Positions 11,035-37,708 of a stretch of 64,000 bases of DNA are shown piece by piece; the first letter of the stretch is position 1, and the number at the start of each line of letters is the position of its first letter. The position numbers and the translations under genes are program-made. Source of the DNA: Proteiniphilum sp. X52 (GTDB lineage Bacteria > Bacteroidota > Bacteroidia > Bacteroidales > Dysgonomonadaceae); the NCBI RefSeq assembly GCF_003712195.1, contig NZ_RDSD01000005.1, forward strand, positions 62,001-126,000, written 5' to 3'. The notes beneath the pieces were generated by a model. It had not been told where the DNA came from and made no database searches. It saw nothing but the letters and a program-made list of their open reading frames with translations.

Positions 11035-11298
11035 ATCGGCCAAACAAAATCTTGAAATTTGAAATTTTGAATGAACAATCTATGCGGTTAAAATCTATGT
11101 GGTCAAATTCTAAAGTCTTGTCCATGATTCAAAAATCCTGTTGCTGGAACGTTACATATCCTCCCCTTTTGAAGGTAAATTGTAAAAAGTAGTTTAAACA
11201 AAAATTAAAAGTAGTTGTTGTAATATAGAAATTGAGACCGAATGGAATTGTCTCAGAGATTAAATAACATTTATGTAGAATCACTAAAACTTCAAGAA

Positions 11299-30406: not shown

Positions 30407-31819
30407 TTAAATCTGGTTTGTCATCCGGTCCCCGGCGCTCACGTTGTTCTCCTTATTCACTGCCAGGCGGTATATCCCCATGTCGATATTCTTCCCCGGG
30501 AAATTGATCCGGAACGCACGGTTGATAGGTTCAAAGACTATATCTTCAGCGATCTGCGTATCCGCCGCATAGAATATTTTCAGCGCGTAAATCATTTGGC
30601 TGCCGCTGTCACCCTTACCGTCAATGATAATATTTGACAATGCAGGATTCAATCCGAATCCGGAAGTGGTTGAGCTGTCTGCGATATTGGAGATCTTACT
30701 TTGCGCTTCGATAAACTTGTCGATGTTCATTTCGATCTGTTCTACTTTCCAGACGCACCTATTGCCTTGGTCATCCGTAAAGTCGATACTCTCCAGGAAC
30801 TTTCCCGTATTCTTTTTCCCGGAGAGCACTTTCGCAATCGTTTCGGTCAGTTCGTCCCGCAACTTCTGCATGCGGATCTCGATCTCTTTTTCGCTTTCCT
30901 CCGGATACTGTTCTACCAGTTTATCGTACTTCTCTTCCCAGTACTCCCGTGGAACATGTACGTGGTATGCTGCCGCGATCATGTTCTCCGTGAGATACTG
31001 TATGATCTCCGGAAGATCGTTTGCCCGTTTCACCCATGGCACGGCACCCAGAAACGATGCCACGCTGTAATATTTGTGTCCCCAACTGCGGAGCGAATGG
31101 TAATCCATGCACACCGGATATCTTCCCGGATCCTGCATGTTGAACCGTGCGTATTTCTCCAGTTCCTTGGGATAATTGCTCTCGAAATTCCCAATGTAAA
31201 AAGTATCCACGTCATCCAGCGACTTGTCTTTCCCCGGATAACCCATCCGGCAATCGGTGGAATGCAATGCCTTTATCCGGGAGATCCACGGTTTGCCCAG
31301 CCGCCGGCTACGTGCGGAGTGGTACCGTGCAAAAAAACCGCCGGAATGATTGAACTCGATCAGCGCGTCACGCACGTATTGGCGGTAATCCCATGAATCC
31401 AGCCACGCCTGGATCTCCTTGTCCTCCGTCCATTCTTTCCGGATCTCGTTATTCTCCAGTTTCAGGGAATAGAGAAACGGGCCCTGGCCGTATTGCAATC
31501 CCAATTTCCGGGAGAGGATCCCCGGCGCGAGGTTGTTTTTCTCCAGCAAATCCCGCATTTCGGCCGGCATATTGTTATTGTAGCCGTATGGCACCATCTC
31601 CACACCTCCATAGATTACCTTCTCCTGTTCCCATGGTCCGGTAAATTTACTCGACGGCGCATAGAAGGTATATTCCGTGTCAAGGCCGGTTATCGCATAA
31701 ACTCCCGTCTGGACTTTCGCAAAACTCACTCCTCCTAAATGCTTTGGTTTCTCGGGATCATATCCGGAGCCGGAGCGGTTTTCTGCCGGGATCATTCCCT
31801 CCTGTTTTGATTCACTCAT
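30407..31819 (-). CDS. Portal protein
   Basis: 470 residues, the usual length. It starts with a low-complexity N-terminus (NRSGSGYDPEKPKHLGG), then the YGYNNNMPAEMRDLLEKNN region and central helices and a long acidic-basic stem (ESEKEIEIRMQKLRDELTE), a general portal pattern with a final ADTQIAEDIVFEPINRAFRI segment. It forms the dodecameric ring at the head vertex. A 100-base part of the N-terminal coding region is repeated next to attR (51,841-51,940). The terminase gene is 5.9 kb upstream, so the normal terminase-portal pair is split by cargo. Confidence 0.72.
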   Translation of the reverse strand: MSESKQEGMIPAENRSGSGYDPEKPKHLGGVSFAKVQTGVYAITGLDTEYTFYAPSSKFTGPWEQEKVIYGGVEMVPYGYNNNMPAEMRDLLEKNNLAPGILSRKLGLQYGQGPFLYSLKLENNEIRKEWTEDKEIQAWLDSWDYRQYVRDALIEFNHSGGFFARYHSARSRRLGKPWISRIKALHSTDCRMGYPGKDKSLDDVDTFYIGNFESNYPKELEKYARFNMQDPGRYPVCMDYHSLRSWGHKYYSVASFLGAVPWVKRANDLPEIIQYLTENMIAAAYHVHVPREYWEEKYDKLVEQYPEESEKEIEIRMQKLRDELTETIAKVLSGKKNTGKFLESIDFTDDQGNRCVWKVEQIEMNIDKFIEAQSKISNIADSSTTSGFGLNPALSNIIIDGKGDSGSQMIYALKIFYAADTQIAEDIVFEPINRAFRINFPGKNIDMGIYRLAVNKENNVSAGDRMTNQI

Positions 31820-32245: not shown

Positions 32246-32659
32246 TCAAACGAAATTCACTTGACTCAATTCATTTGCAAAACGATGGATCCCTGTTTCA
32301 ATTTTCTGGATCGTTTCCGGACGCGGTTTCTTTACCCCGTTCAAATAATGGCTTAACTGGCGTTGATTGATACCGGTAATTTTTTCCAATCCGGATAACG
32401 AAAGCATATCCGAATAGTGAGCTAAGAACGAAGCGGCATCATATTTAAACGTAAATTCTAAATCCCCAGGAAACTCTTTCCCTTTTTCGGCGTATAAAGC
32501 TTTCATTTCGTCGGCCGATGCATAAAAGTCATCGATACACTCCTGTACGGAATGTCCTTCACCTAATAACCCAAACGATAATCCATACTCTTTGTCAGGA
32601 TCTATAACAGCTTCAAAACGCTTGTCGGGACCGGTTTCAATAATCACATCTATTTTCAT
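32246..32659 (-). CDS. hicB: HicB-family antitoxin with C-terminal HTH
   Basis: 137 residues. The N-terminal half (1-60) has the HicB pseudo-RNase-H fold pattern (DYGLSFGLLGEGHSVQECID), where YGLSFGL and EGHSVQE are typical. The C-terminal part (about 83-120, GLEKITGINQRQLSHYLNG) is an XRE-type helix-turn-helix that can bind the operator. It neutralises the HicA toxin encoded upstream. Transcribed after hicA with a 29-base gap. Confidence 0.88.
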   Translation of the reverse strand: MKIDVIIETGPDKRFEAVIDPDKEYGLSFGLLGEGHSVQECIDDFYASADEMKALYAEKGKEFPGDLEFTFKYDAASFLAHYSDMLSLSGLEKITGINQRQLSHYLNGVKKPRPETIQKIETGIHRFANELSQVNFV

Positions 32660-34046: not shown

Positions 34047-35159
34047 TTATTTCAACATTTCAAGTAAATCATGTTCTTCCAAGACCACAATGTCATCTCT
34101 CAGCCTCTTTTGCTCTTCAATTTTCTCCAATTTTGATGGTCCCGCATTTTCACCTATGATGACAATATTCGTTTTGGAAGTAATTGCTCCTCTTTTTACA
34201 CCTCCGAGCCGAGTGAATATTTCGCCCAGATCGTCTCTCGAGAAATTATTGAAAACACCGGTAATCACAAATATTTTTCCTTTAAATATTTCTGGGTCTA
34301 TTTTTCCTACACATTTTGAAACAAATGCTTCATTATAAGTATGCTCATTCACCACTGGGATCTTTTTCTCAATCGGATAAGGAGGTTCCATGTCTTTCAT
34401 TTTCATAAAACATTTATAGGTAACCAGTACGTCGTAAAAAGCAGAATGTGCATTTTGAATAGTTATGTATTTATTGTTGTAGAACAGTTCTCCAAACAGT
34501 TCTTCCAACCGTGGATTCTTCCTTGTAAGTCCTTTACCATATGTGATGCAAAATTCTTTCCCATTCTCCATGGTGCAATAAACATCTTTTTCATTTAAAA
34601 CACTGAATATAAATCCATGTCTATATAGATCAGCCTTCAATACCTCGATGTCAAATTTTGCGTTATGCGCAACAATTGTATCACAGTTTTGAATCTGTGA
34701 TAGTAGAGATTCATAAATTGGTTTTGGATCCTCACCTTCAGCCAACATCTTTTCAGTTGTTATTTTATGAATATTGGTTGCTGATATGGGGATTGTTGTA
34801 TCCTGTTTCAAAATCACGTCCTCTCCTTCAACTAACAATCCCTCTTCATCCACAAGGATCCAGGCGATCTGAACAATATAGGGCCAGTCCGCAATATTGT
34901 CGGGTTTGAATATTCTACTTTTTGATGGAATGCCTGTTGTCTCCGTGTCGAGAATCAGATATTTACCAATGTTGGTGGAACTCTTTTCGGGTACATAAAT
35001 TGTAGTGTTGACAATAGATTTCTGATTGTCGAGTACCTGATCGACGGCATCAATGACACTCTGATCTCGAACCGGTTTCTTTCCATTTTTTTTGTCTGTT
35101 GTAAAAACTATAGCAATAGCCATAATTATCACTGCAAGAAGGATTAAAGCGAAAATCAT
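34047..35159 (-). CDS. Membrane-anchored DEDDh 3'-5' exonuclease with BRCT domain
   Basis: 370 residues. Residues 2-20 form one membrane helix. The exonuclease domain (about 66-250) has all DEDDh residues: DTETTG (Asp71, Glu73), AHNAKFD (Asp170) and HSAFYD (His238, Asp243). Residues 291-370 match a BRCT domain (FKGKIFVITGVF, LGG, TNIVIIGE). DnaQ-like exonucleases with BRCT occur in DNA repair; the membrane anchor and the location in prophage cargo are unusual. It may degrade DNA at the membrane, for example incoming phage DNA, but that is a hypothesis. Confidence 0.85.
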   Translation of the reverse strand: MIFALILLAVIIMAIAIVFTTDKKNGKKPVRDQSVIDAVDQVLDNQKSIVNTTIYVPEKSSTNIGKYLILDTETTGIPSKSRIFKPDNIADWPYIVQIAWILVDEEGLLVEGEDVILKQDTTIPISATNIHKITTEKMLAEGEDPKPIYESLLSQIQNCDTIVAHNAKFDIEVLKADLYRHGFIFSVLNEKDVYCTMENGKEFCITYGKGLTRKNPRLEELFGELFYNNKYITIQNAHSAFYDVLVTYKCFMKMKDMEPPYPIEKKIPVVNEHTYNEAFVSKCVGKIDPEIFKGKIFVITGVFNNFSRDDLGEIFTRLGGVKRGAITSKTNIVIIGENAGPSKLEKIEEQKRLRDDIVVLEEHDLLEMLK

Positions 35160-35522: not shown

Positions 35523-36152
35523 CTATTTTATTATTACTCCTTCATTTCTGTCAACTTTCTCCTGTAGTCGTGAAAAATGGATCGATATCTTTGTTAGCAA
35601 TAAGTAATGTCCGTAGTTACTCAAGGTGAAAAGCCTTTTTGTTTTTAAATTATTTCTTTCTATTATTGTGTTTTTGCAATTATTGATTCGATCCAGAAAA
35701 ACAATACCCTCATAATCCAAACCTTCTCCTGCTGGCAAATAAAGTATTTGAGTAATGTATTGTTTTCTTATTGATTCAATATGCTGATTAAGGCTCTCTT
35801 CTTGTTTATATTTATCAATTCTTTTTACAGCATTGATATATTTTTCAAGGTTGAATATTGGTGCATAACAAATGTGGGAAGGGAAAGCTCTTTCATTAGC
35901 CTCATCAATATCACAAGTGTTTGACAATATTATAGATGGAGTTTTTTTGATCGTTGTGTCAGGTAAATTAATAACAGGCAATTCCTTGATGGCATCACCT
36001 TGGAAAATTATGTTGTCATTTTGCAGTCTATTTGTATAAAGCGAACCATCAAGGATATTTGGGAAATCTGCAATTTCTCGTAGTAATTTTTTTGTAGATT
36101 CCTCTGATAGATATTTGGGCAGATATAATCTTATATCTTCATATATATTCAT
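35523..36152 (-). CDS. Cargo cassette protein C, unknown family
   Basis: 209 residues. Contains IILSNTCDIDEAN (about 73-86), resembling a recurrent (S/T)xTCD motif in uncharacterised bacterial proteins, then a helical section and ITQILYLPAGEGLDYEGIVFLD. No signal or membrane segment. It begins one base after the stop of the 115-residue gene, so translation is probably coupled. Function unknown. Confidence 0.6.
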   Translation of the reverse strand: MNIYEDIRLYLPKYLSEESTKKLLREIADFPNILDGSLYTNRLQNDNIIFQGDAIKELPVINLPDTTIKKTPSIILSNTCDIDEANERAFPSHICYAPIFNLEKYINAVKRIDKYKQEESLNQHIESIRKQYITQILYLPAGEGLDYEGIVFLDRINNCKNTIIERNNLKTKRLFTLSNYGHYLLLTKISIHFSRLQEKVDRNEGVIIK

Positions 36153-36153
36153 A

Positions 36154-36501
36154 TCAAATTAAATCCCAGAAGTTTTCATTAACCAAATCTACAATCTCTC
36201 TATCTAACTCACTACTATTCGTAAGCAAATTAGAAACAAACTCATGCAAAATAGAAATATCAAACATATCGTCAGTTGCGCTTTTGTATGAAATAATCGA
36301 AGAAGACGTGTTCAATGATGCCGGGTTAATATTAACTCCTGTGGAGATTGATGCGGACAGGATTAGAATACTAAATCCTAAAGTAGTAATAGGATATGAT
36401 TTCCGGCTGTTAATTGATCTAACTGACTCTTCATTATTGGAGTTCCTTAATACGGATGAAGTAGCAGGAAACATTGGAGTTAAATCTAGAGTTGAATCCA
36501 T
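36154..36501 (-). CDS. Cargo cassette protein B, unknown
   Basis: 115 residues, Ser/Thr/Asn-rich with a hydrophobic patch (TTLGFSILILSASIS) and an acidic C-terminal helix. It begins 8 bases after the stop of the TIGR04255 gene and ends one base before protein C. The plus strand also has a frame here (36,284-36,517), but the tight spacing in the cassette favours the minus-strand gene. Confidence 0.5.
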   Translation of the reverse strand: MDSTLDLTPMFPATSSVLRNSNNEESVRSINSRKSYPITTLGFSILILSASISTGVNINPASLNTSSSIISYKSATDDMFDISILHEFVSNLLTNSSELDREIVDLVNENFWDLI

Positions 36502-36509
36502 TTTACTAA

Positions 36510-37241
36510 TTATTTAAAGCTGTTATACATTTCTCCCTCAGTCATTTTCTTGAATTTTTCACTCAAGAAAGAATGCGCTTCCTCTAGCCATGAAGGTAAG
36601 ATATTAAAATCTGTAGAGCTGATTTTTTTTGAAACATTTGTTTCGATAACAAATCCTTCTTTATTGTTATATCCACCTCGGTTTATTATCACATTAAACA
36701 ACCCTATCTCTTCGTTGTAGCCACTAGCGAATGTGAAAAATACCGGATTATTGTTTTTCTCGGGACGTATATTATGTTTAATGTCTAAATGTAACAGTTT
36801 GTGTAAAAACTCGAATGCGTCATGATTGAAATTAAATTCAAAAAAATCAATATATTTCAACCCCATGTTCAATAATGTATCCTTCTCAAAATCATAAGAT
36901 TCTTTAAATACTTTTGTTATTTTCACTATTTCTTTTTCGAACTGTTCCCAGAAATAATGCGAATCAACTGTGTTGACGGATAATAACCCTGGTCCTATTT
37001 GATAGAGAGGGTATGATTCATTTTTACTGAATCTATAAACTGGTTTATTGGCCAAAATTTCTAACGGAATTTCTACATTTGGAGGTTGAACAAGCCTAAG
37101 ACGATTAGGGTATTCACTTCTTAATTTCGAATAAATATCACCAAGTAAAAATTGAAACTTTTCTTGCTCCTTCCCATTATTTATAGGCCACGTTAATTCA
37201 AATATAACCTCTATAAGAGGAGCCTTAGGTAATTTACTCAT
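36510..37241 (-). CDS. TIGR04255-family protein, first gene of cargo cassette
   Basis: 243 residues, the usual length for this family. The N-terminal pattern LPKAPLIEVIFELTWP matches the family hallmark, with later LRLVQPPNVEIPLEILANKP. TIGR04255 proteins are found sporadically across bacteria and have no known biochemical role, often beside small unknown genes. It has its own promoter at 37,351-37,383, and the genes are visibly more A+T-rich than the neighbouring structural genes, as expected for recent cargo. Confidence 0.75.
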   Translation of the reverse strand: MSKLPKAPLIEVIFELTWPINNGKEQEKFQFLLGDIYSKLRSEYPNRLRLVQPPNVEIPLEILANKPVYRFSKNESYPLYQIGPGLLSVNTVDSHYFWEQFEKEIVKITKVFKESYDFEKDTLLNMGLKYIDFFEFNFNHDAFEFLHKLLHLDIKHNIRPEKNNNPVFFTFASGYNEEIGLFNVIINRGGYNNKEGFVIETNVSKKISSTDFNILPSWLEEAHSFLSEKFKKMTEGEMYNSFK

Positions 37242-37708
37242 AATATATCTATTCTTTATACTCTGAGAGAGAAAGAGTTATAACTATATTGAAAATGACG
37301 ATTTAGTTGTGTCTACTGTCTTGTTACTGCGCTTTATGTGCTCTTTTGTGCAAAAGTAGCAAATTATTCATATGGTAAACAAAGTTTTGCTGTTAAAAGT
37401 TTAGTTTTAGGCTTGTTTTAGCCTTAAAACACCGATTTTTCACTAAAAATAGCCGATTTTCGCCTTAAAATGGTCGACTTTTGGCACTTTTTTCACGAGA
37501 AAAATTTGCAACATTTTGAAAAACAGTTAAAAAACCTGTTCAAAATGCGATTGGAGATCGCAAAACACGGAGTTGTGGCCGACCCGCTCTGCCCCGTGGA
37601 TGCAATTGCACGCCCCGTTTCGAGGGGAAATGTGATTTTTTGTGAAAAAATCCACTGATTCACCCTCTAATTTTAACATTTTCCCGTATGCCCTGCCGAT
37701 GGCGTGGA
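37242..37708. other. Intergenic region between terminase and cargo cassette
   Basis: 467 bases. It holds the cassette promoter and, between 37,385 and 37,470, several repeated GCCTTAAAA and CCGATTTT units. Open frames at 37,470-37,658 (plus) and 37,527-37,712 (minus) mirror each other and show no family likeness, so I do not call them. Confidence 0.5.
37351..37383 (-). promoter_or_regulatory. Promoter of the cargo cassette
   Basis: On the minus strand a TTTG (37,383-37,380) is followed after 21 bases by TACTTTTG (37,358-37,351), which fits the Bacteroidetes -33/-7 pattern. The start codon of the TIGR04255 gene is 109 bases downstream. It allows expression independent of the late phage operon, hence in the lysogen. 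Confidence 0.6.

Follow-up and report, generated by a model that had tools for sequence, protein, structure and literature searches.

Within a 64,000-nucleotide stretch of the genome of Proteiniphilum sp. X52 (contig NZ_RDSD01000005.1, positions 62,001 to 126,000; hereafter the window), a prophage carries three closely packed minus-strand genes that we call A, B and C. We believe that this cassette is a mobile, tripartite toxin-antitoxin-like cargo whose most likely function is defence, either by abortive infection or by blocking superinfection, and we give this reading just short of an even chance. The three genes are coding, they recur in the same order, they occupy a cargo position, and a MazF gene stands in the place of C in related operons.

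Searches with an alignment of C recovered 66 loci from genome contigs and 48 from viral contigs, a partly redundant set of 114 that includes several near-identical Escherichia coli-type prophages. The preliminary description of this DNA, made from the sequence alone, had left room for a triple that is conserved nowhere else or for a B and a C that encode nothing. What we find is that profiles detect both A and B at 104 of the 114 loci, in at least six phyla plus phage contigs, and that the ratios of nonsynonymous to synonymous substitution (dN/dS) relative to the copy in a same-genus genome are 0.09 for A, 0.24 for B and 0.14 for C, from which we conclude that B and C are coding. The B family is present at 107 loci (at three of them without A), and each full match to A lies upstream of C and on the same strand. 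In the window, where the same description had noted three tightly spaced leftward genes, the open reading frame (ORF) coordinates and the gaps of 8 bases from A to B and 1 base from B to C hold, and B is positioned directly upstream of C.

The ten loci without A are of several kinds. At L064, L106 and L115 the contig ends, at L098 C is apparently degraded, and at L118 B and C are accompanied by a 209-amino-acid gene in A's place that has no NCBIfam match. At L103, L104, L107, L109 and L110, which are of Bacilli type where named, genes of 241–245 and 93–95 amino acids take the places of A and B and match none of the A and B profiles; those of L104 match no NCBIfam model either. One A fragment (L069) and two B matches (L070 and L102) fall outside our spacing limits at loci where the frame of C is longer or broken. 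C is split or short at L069, L096, L100, L101, L102, L108 and L147, as is A at L069, L097, L100 and L105, and part of these defects may be due to draft-assembly errors.

The triple is also found in phages. An IMG/VR viral contig carries an A and a C identical to those of the window, and this contig is all that single-sequence searches with A or C return from viral contigs, an alignment being needed to reach more distant relatives. A tblastn search of phage records with C matched four records of Pseudomonas phages, two of which belong to one phage, at about 30% identity, and the same search with A gave no match. Read by eye, Pseudomonas phages Dobby and VW-6S keep the A-B-C order, with annotated starts of A and B that are later than those of the conserved ORFs, and in Dobby the triple lies between the integrase and the portal. 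In phage record OQ658368 (2,117–2,677), the annotation has no gene at C, nor any between C and the attL repeat that precedes it. Among bacteria, C occurs in three of 61 genomes near that of the window (its own included), one copy having an in-frame stop, and in four of 395 genomes sampled from the phylum of the window, two of these four matches being weak.

The predicted structure of C points to a toxin. C belongs to a PHROG family that has no assigned function (phrog_4575, expect value (E) 1.4e-43), and an AlphaFold2 model built from 32 sequences has a mean predicted local distance difference test score (pLDDT) of 84.5. When this model is compared with the PDB, 49 of the 50 best among 355 matches (E up to 10) are MazF-type mRNA interferases, the best with E 1.8e-4 and probability 1.00. 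These fill ranks 1–39 and 41–50, rank 40 being a type III toxin, and over ranks 1–39 the template modelling (TM) score is 0.59–0.74 when normalized by target and 0.35–0.44 when normalized by query. A MazF-type barrel fold is therefore predicted for C. Residues invariant in the 32 sequences include Q50-G51-D52, S76-N77, C79-D80 and R87, which yield QGD and SNxCD signatures; the catalytic residues of MazF are an arginine and a threonine. At 1,267–1,818 of locus L012, a distantly C-like protein containing the stretches QGD and SHSCDID is encoded with no recognized TIGR04255 neighbour.

Gene A had been described as TIGR04255-like, and this assignment is secure: the protein scores 103.4 bits (cut-off 30) with E 1.7e-29 over model positions 1–252 of 252. 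TIGR04255 is the sole family matched, with no Pfam family among the hits. An AlphaFold2 model from 53 sequences (pLDDT 83.0) presents the order strand, helix, strands, helix twice over, and its eight best PDB matches are TATA-binding proteins (TBPs; best E 2.4e-3, probability 0.94, TM score 0.30). Among its matches in BFVD are early transcription factors from large DNA viruses, proteins that carry TBP-like parts. We consider it likely that A adopts a two-part, TBP-like (helix-grip) fold. Profile comparison of the N- and C-terminal halves of A finds no match between them, so this two-part reading is drawn from the model itself. Structure prediction, proposed in the preliminary description as a check, has thus given a MazF/PemK-like fold for C and a weakly TBP-like one for A.

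Further TIGR04255 operons place the cassette in a broader setting. Sampling of 395 genomes from the phylum of the window found the family in 24, and sampling of 398 from the phylum of an Aggregatibacter genome found it in 30, or in roughly 6–8% of the sampled genomes of the two phyla. These yielded 58 matches at 56 loci (L160–L215), from which three C-type triples (L164, L175 and L199) were set aside; eight loci lacked A by profile, and the second gene could be read at 45 loci and the third at 44. The expectation that a TIGR04255 gene would mark a conserved triple is borne out for C-type loci, and the same gene has other partners elsewhere. Among the 44 third genes, 12 belong to one small family, six are MazF, five are of about 280 amino acids (one cut short), four are of about 170 amino acids and four are C-type, the rest forming smaller groups. 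A PemK/MazF gene thus fills C's place in six operons; the one that we scanned matches PF02452 with E 3.1e-13, and the others align with it at 70% identity or more. A match to HEPN below threshold (E 0.004) was obtained for the third gene of L160, that of L208 looks HEPN-like by eye and gave no HEPN match in the scan, and those of L187 and L188 look like NlpC/P60 proteins by eye, with no Pfam match for L188. The second gene of L197 has sub-threshold HTH matches. By eye, the third genes of about 280 amino acids (L189, L192, L197, L200 and L215) contain an [S/T]xxC stretch like that of C, and they are possibly larger relatives of C.

A quick tree with an arbitrary root was made from 101 A proteins (61 thinned C-type, 39 from the survey and one of Bacilli type), leaving out the short L179 and the unclassified L180, L181, L182, L194 and L211. 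All six MazF-type A proteins cluster together (support 100), and this cluster lies inside a group of 46 (support 94) whose other 40 members are C-type and which is itself nested in a group of 68 (support 96). C and a genuine MazF therefore stand beside closely related A proteins, and no fewer than 15 changes are required to place the ten partner labels on the tree.

The remaining gene, B, was analysed as a set of 65 non-redundant members, with those longer than 135 amino acids cut to their last 110 residues. The protein has a weakly apolar stretch in its N-terminal half and a conserved C-terminal part, which in the window ends NENFWDLI. A loose acidic-aromatic tail (NFWDL, NLWDLYES) is present in 55 of the 65, by a pattern that was drawn up after the sequences had been seen. 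The tails of MazE-type antitoxins bind the groove of their toxins in a similar way, and by this analogy the conserved tail of B may bind C.

From these components we can propose how the cassette might operate. C would be a toxin with a MazF/PemK-type barrel that has diverged in sequence, and B would be a small inhibitor or adaptor seated on C through its acidic-aromatic tail. A would be a TBP-like third part, a sensor or a holder, that keeps hold of B, perhaps through B's apolar N-terminal stretch. If a product of the infecting phage were to release or alter A, B would then be lost, and C would stop growth or translation before the phage matures.

This scheme is drawn by analogy with CmdTAC, whose CmdC component is a SecB-like chaperone. 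In CmdTAC, capsid protein draws the chaperone off, after which degradation of the antitoxin sets the toxin free (PMC11618068). Both systems have three genes, and the toxin and inhibitor proposed for the cassette, along with its third component as a sensor or holder, would correspond to the parts of CmdTAC (PMC11618068). However, A has a TBP-like predicted fold and does not match SecB-type chaperones, C is predicted to be MazF-like rather than an ADP-ribosyltransferase, and sensing is something that we infer for the cassette. The other obvious comparison is with MazEF/PemIK modules, which the cassette resembles in the predicted fold of C, in the small gene with a conserved acidic-aromatic tail directly upstream of C, and in the presence of PemK/MazF in C's place in related TIGR04255 operons. 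It differs from them in having a third gene, in that C has no PemK sequence signature, and in that the B of the window has no known DNA-binding antitoxin domain.

Evidence on cargo position comes from both the window and E. coli. The triple was said to lie in a prophage between terminase and portal genes; the prophage is well marked by a tape measure protein, a head maturation protease, a primase/helicase-like protein and a terminase, although the terminase is matched modestly (E 4e-5) and the putative portal (30,407–31,819) weakly (E 0.009). The triple is indeed more AT-rich than its neighbours, with a G+C (GC) content of 31.5% compared with 44.6% for the window and 50.6% for the terminase gene, and GC as low as this occurs in only one of 312 segments of equal length, taken at steps of 200 and counting the triple itself.

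In E. coli, the cassette is present at 99% identity or more in 92 of 5,426 complete genomes, at 93 places of which one is on a plasmid. The A, B and C proteins of this E. coli version are WP_000907077, WP_125282403 and WP_001542079. A 3-kilobase query comprising the cassette and its flanks is covered to at least 80% in 92 records, a coverage that requires both cassette and flank to be present, and these share the same holin and antiterminator Q flanks. In the two loci that we opened, the cassette lies between a lambda-type holin and antiterminator Q, on the strand opposite to the lysis genes. By blastn, which would miss copies below about 65% identity, no copy in E. coli had any other flanks. 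The search with the 3-kilobase query gave 4,697 records, and among 60 of these spread down the ranking, two carry the triple, while in three others the genes encode, in turn, a Kiwa protein of KwaB type together with a partner, a TIR protein and a KAP NTPase. When these three other strains were opened, their genes were found in the same slot and the same orientation as the triple, whereas their annotated proteins are unrelated to A, B and C. One opened record has a hypothetical protein in the slot and another (H58) lists one; most of the remaining records among the 60 match one side of the flanks only.

Varied cargo in the slot between Q and the holin can also be seen at 11,274–14,098 of L158 and at L217–L220, where the five kinds that we opened lie on the strand opposite to the lysis genes. 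Near the prophage end in E. coli NCCP12480, genes for a SLATT protein and a reverse transcriptase (3,623–5,522 of L159) are separated from the triple by the tail fibre gene.

Several results weigh against a defensive toxin-antitoxin cargo. No match to PF02452 (E up to 10) exists among the 32 C members, C has no PDB sequence match, and hhalign of C against a six-sequence MazF alignment returns a probability of 16% over 23 columns in an implausible register, with an E of 0.0016 that applies to the single comparison. The TBP match of A is weak, with no PDB match at E 0.001 or better, and the window's own A lineage stands apart from the main C-type A group, next to long branches. The B of the window has no Pfam, NCBIfam or PADLOC match, and thus no known antitoxin (DNA-binding) domain, and its PHROG matches are weak (best E 0.047). 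None of the three proteins matches a family of PADLOC-DB 2.0.0 at E up to 10, in a search whose filters drop most matches above about 0.1. An OmpC-type porin lies beside the antiterminator in seven of the 60 E. coli records, and these porins make the slot weaker as evidence for defence and no proof of it. The slot between Q and the holin is a cargo slot that accommodates defence-type and other genes rather than defence genes only. Finally, no kind of neighbour recurs among the 101 nearest neighbours of 58 genome-contig copies (ORFs of 130–800 amino acids, at most one per side, with no background control); integrases number five, and other Pfam or PADLOC families no more than two each.

At least one of these 101 neighbours is matched by each of 265 PADLOC families, of which 25 were listed. 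We do not claim that the genome-contig copies lie in defence islands, as the neighbour counts have no background control. A sequence link between C and MazF has likewise been dropped, with Pfam, PDB sequence and hhalign comparisons all giving no support.

The main rival is a tripartite addiction module, in which the same toxin and inhibitor parts would keep the prophage or island in its host instead of blocking phages. The occurrence of the triple both in prophages and in other genome settings, the lack of any recurring neighbour and the toxin-like predicted fold of C are all compatible with such a role. Even so, the E. coli slot is shared with Kiwa-like, TIR and KAP NTPase genes (though also with porins), and the cassette is seldom on plasmids (tblastn with C matched a single PLSDB record, and one of the E. 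coli places is a plasmid), and we regard addiction as unlikely while still a serious contender. It is quite unlikely that the cassette instead encodes counter-defence, regulatory or other lysogenic-conversion functions, with C or A acting as a non-toxic binding protein that serves the prophage or the host. The TBP-like predicted fold of A, the missing MazF signature in C and the porins of the E. coli slot would suit that explanation, but the copies in genome contigs of many phyla and the genuine MazF in C's place beside related A proteins argue against it.

The properties of B bear on another proposal, in which B would insert into the membrane through its N-terminal apolar stretch and block phage entry or depolarize the cell under the control of A and C. 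The most apolar 18-residue stretch of B does lie in the N-terminal half in 63 of the 65 members and is uncharged in 46. However, a mean hydropathy of 1.6 is reached in only 22 of the 65, only 10 exceed their own shuffles at the 5% level, and the B-sized genes of the five Bacilli-type loci have no clear apolar stretch by eye, and we judge membrane exclusion to be very unlikely. That the genes are ordinary structural or packaging genes is suggested solely by their place between the terminase and the putative portal, and this idea is scarcely credible. The triple occurs at unrelated sites outside this phage and in genome contigs, and its base composition is unlike that of the structural genes measured. 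At L045, moreover, the closest ORF taken on the upstream side is that of a polysaccharide export protein, which indicates that the cassette is not confined to the company of phage genes.

The suggestion in the preliminary description that the triple is undescribed anti-phage cargo is therefore plausible on two grounds, the MazF-like predicted fold of C and the E. coli slot common to Kiwa-like, TIR and KAP NTPase genes, with the porins in that slot weighing on the other side. TIGR04255, phrog_4575 and the E. coli accessions of the cassette were not found in the literature searched, which excluded subscription journals, preprints and supplements. One prophage-carried system of three genes, from a hotspot in P2, reportedly goes by the name Rst_3HP. 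Rousset et al. (2022) describe the interval between gpA and gpQ of P2 as a defence hotspot, where three genes without a clear predicted domain protect against P1 (PMC9122126). The cassette, which may or may not be this same system, resembles it in being a prophage-carried set of three genes without clear predicted domains, whereas the E. coli copies of the triple that we found have lambdoid Q and holin flanks rather than the P2 hotspot.

Positions of the cassette and its possible promoter are collected in the following table. A promoter of its own had been ascribed to the cassette, and the -33/-7 pattern is present. It occurs three times in the window compared with 1.25 expected, and three or more times in 13 of 100 shuffles, which is at best weakly above chance.

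Table 1. The A-B-C cassette and the pattern preceding it (positions in the window)
Feature	Position	Strand	Description
Gene A	36,510–37,241	-	243 amino acids; TIGR04255 family protein
Gene B	36,154–36,501	-	115 amino acids
Gene C	35,523–36,152	-	209 amino acids; phrog_4575
Possible Bacteroidota-type promoter	37,351–37,383	-	TTTG + 21-base spacer + TANNTTTG; 110 bases upstream of A

Two further minus-strand genes lie close to the cassette. The first (34,047–35,159), in the same AT-rich stretch (36% GC), encodes a protein that has an apolar N-terminus, combines a DEDDh-type exonuclease domain with a BRCT domain and matches the PADLOC candidate model PDC-S48 with E 5e-14. The second (32,246–32,659) encodes a small HTH_3 protein at the other end of the stretch between the terminase and the putative portal.

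Beyond the cassette itself, we tentatively propose that TIGR04255 is the hub of a large, so far undescribed family of immune or addiction systems with three genes each, a proposal that is somewhat more apt to be wrong than right. Such systems would combine a constant part with a TBP fold, a small, fast-changing adaptor and an exchangeable effector, and the effectors would include MazF-like, true MazF, HEPN-like and NlpC/P60-looking proteins as well as several unnamed kinds. If true, a family whose role has been obscure would gain a job as the constant part of a modular three-part system with a swappable effector. Furthermore, if the predicted fold of A holds, it would reveal a role for the TBP-like fold in bacterial conflict systems.
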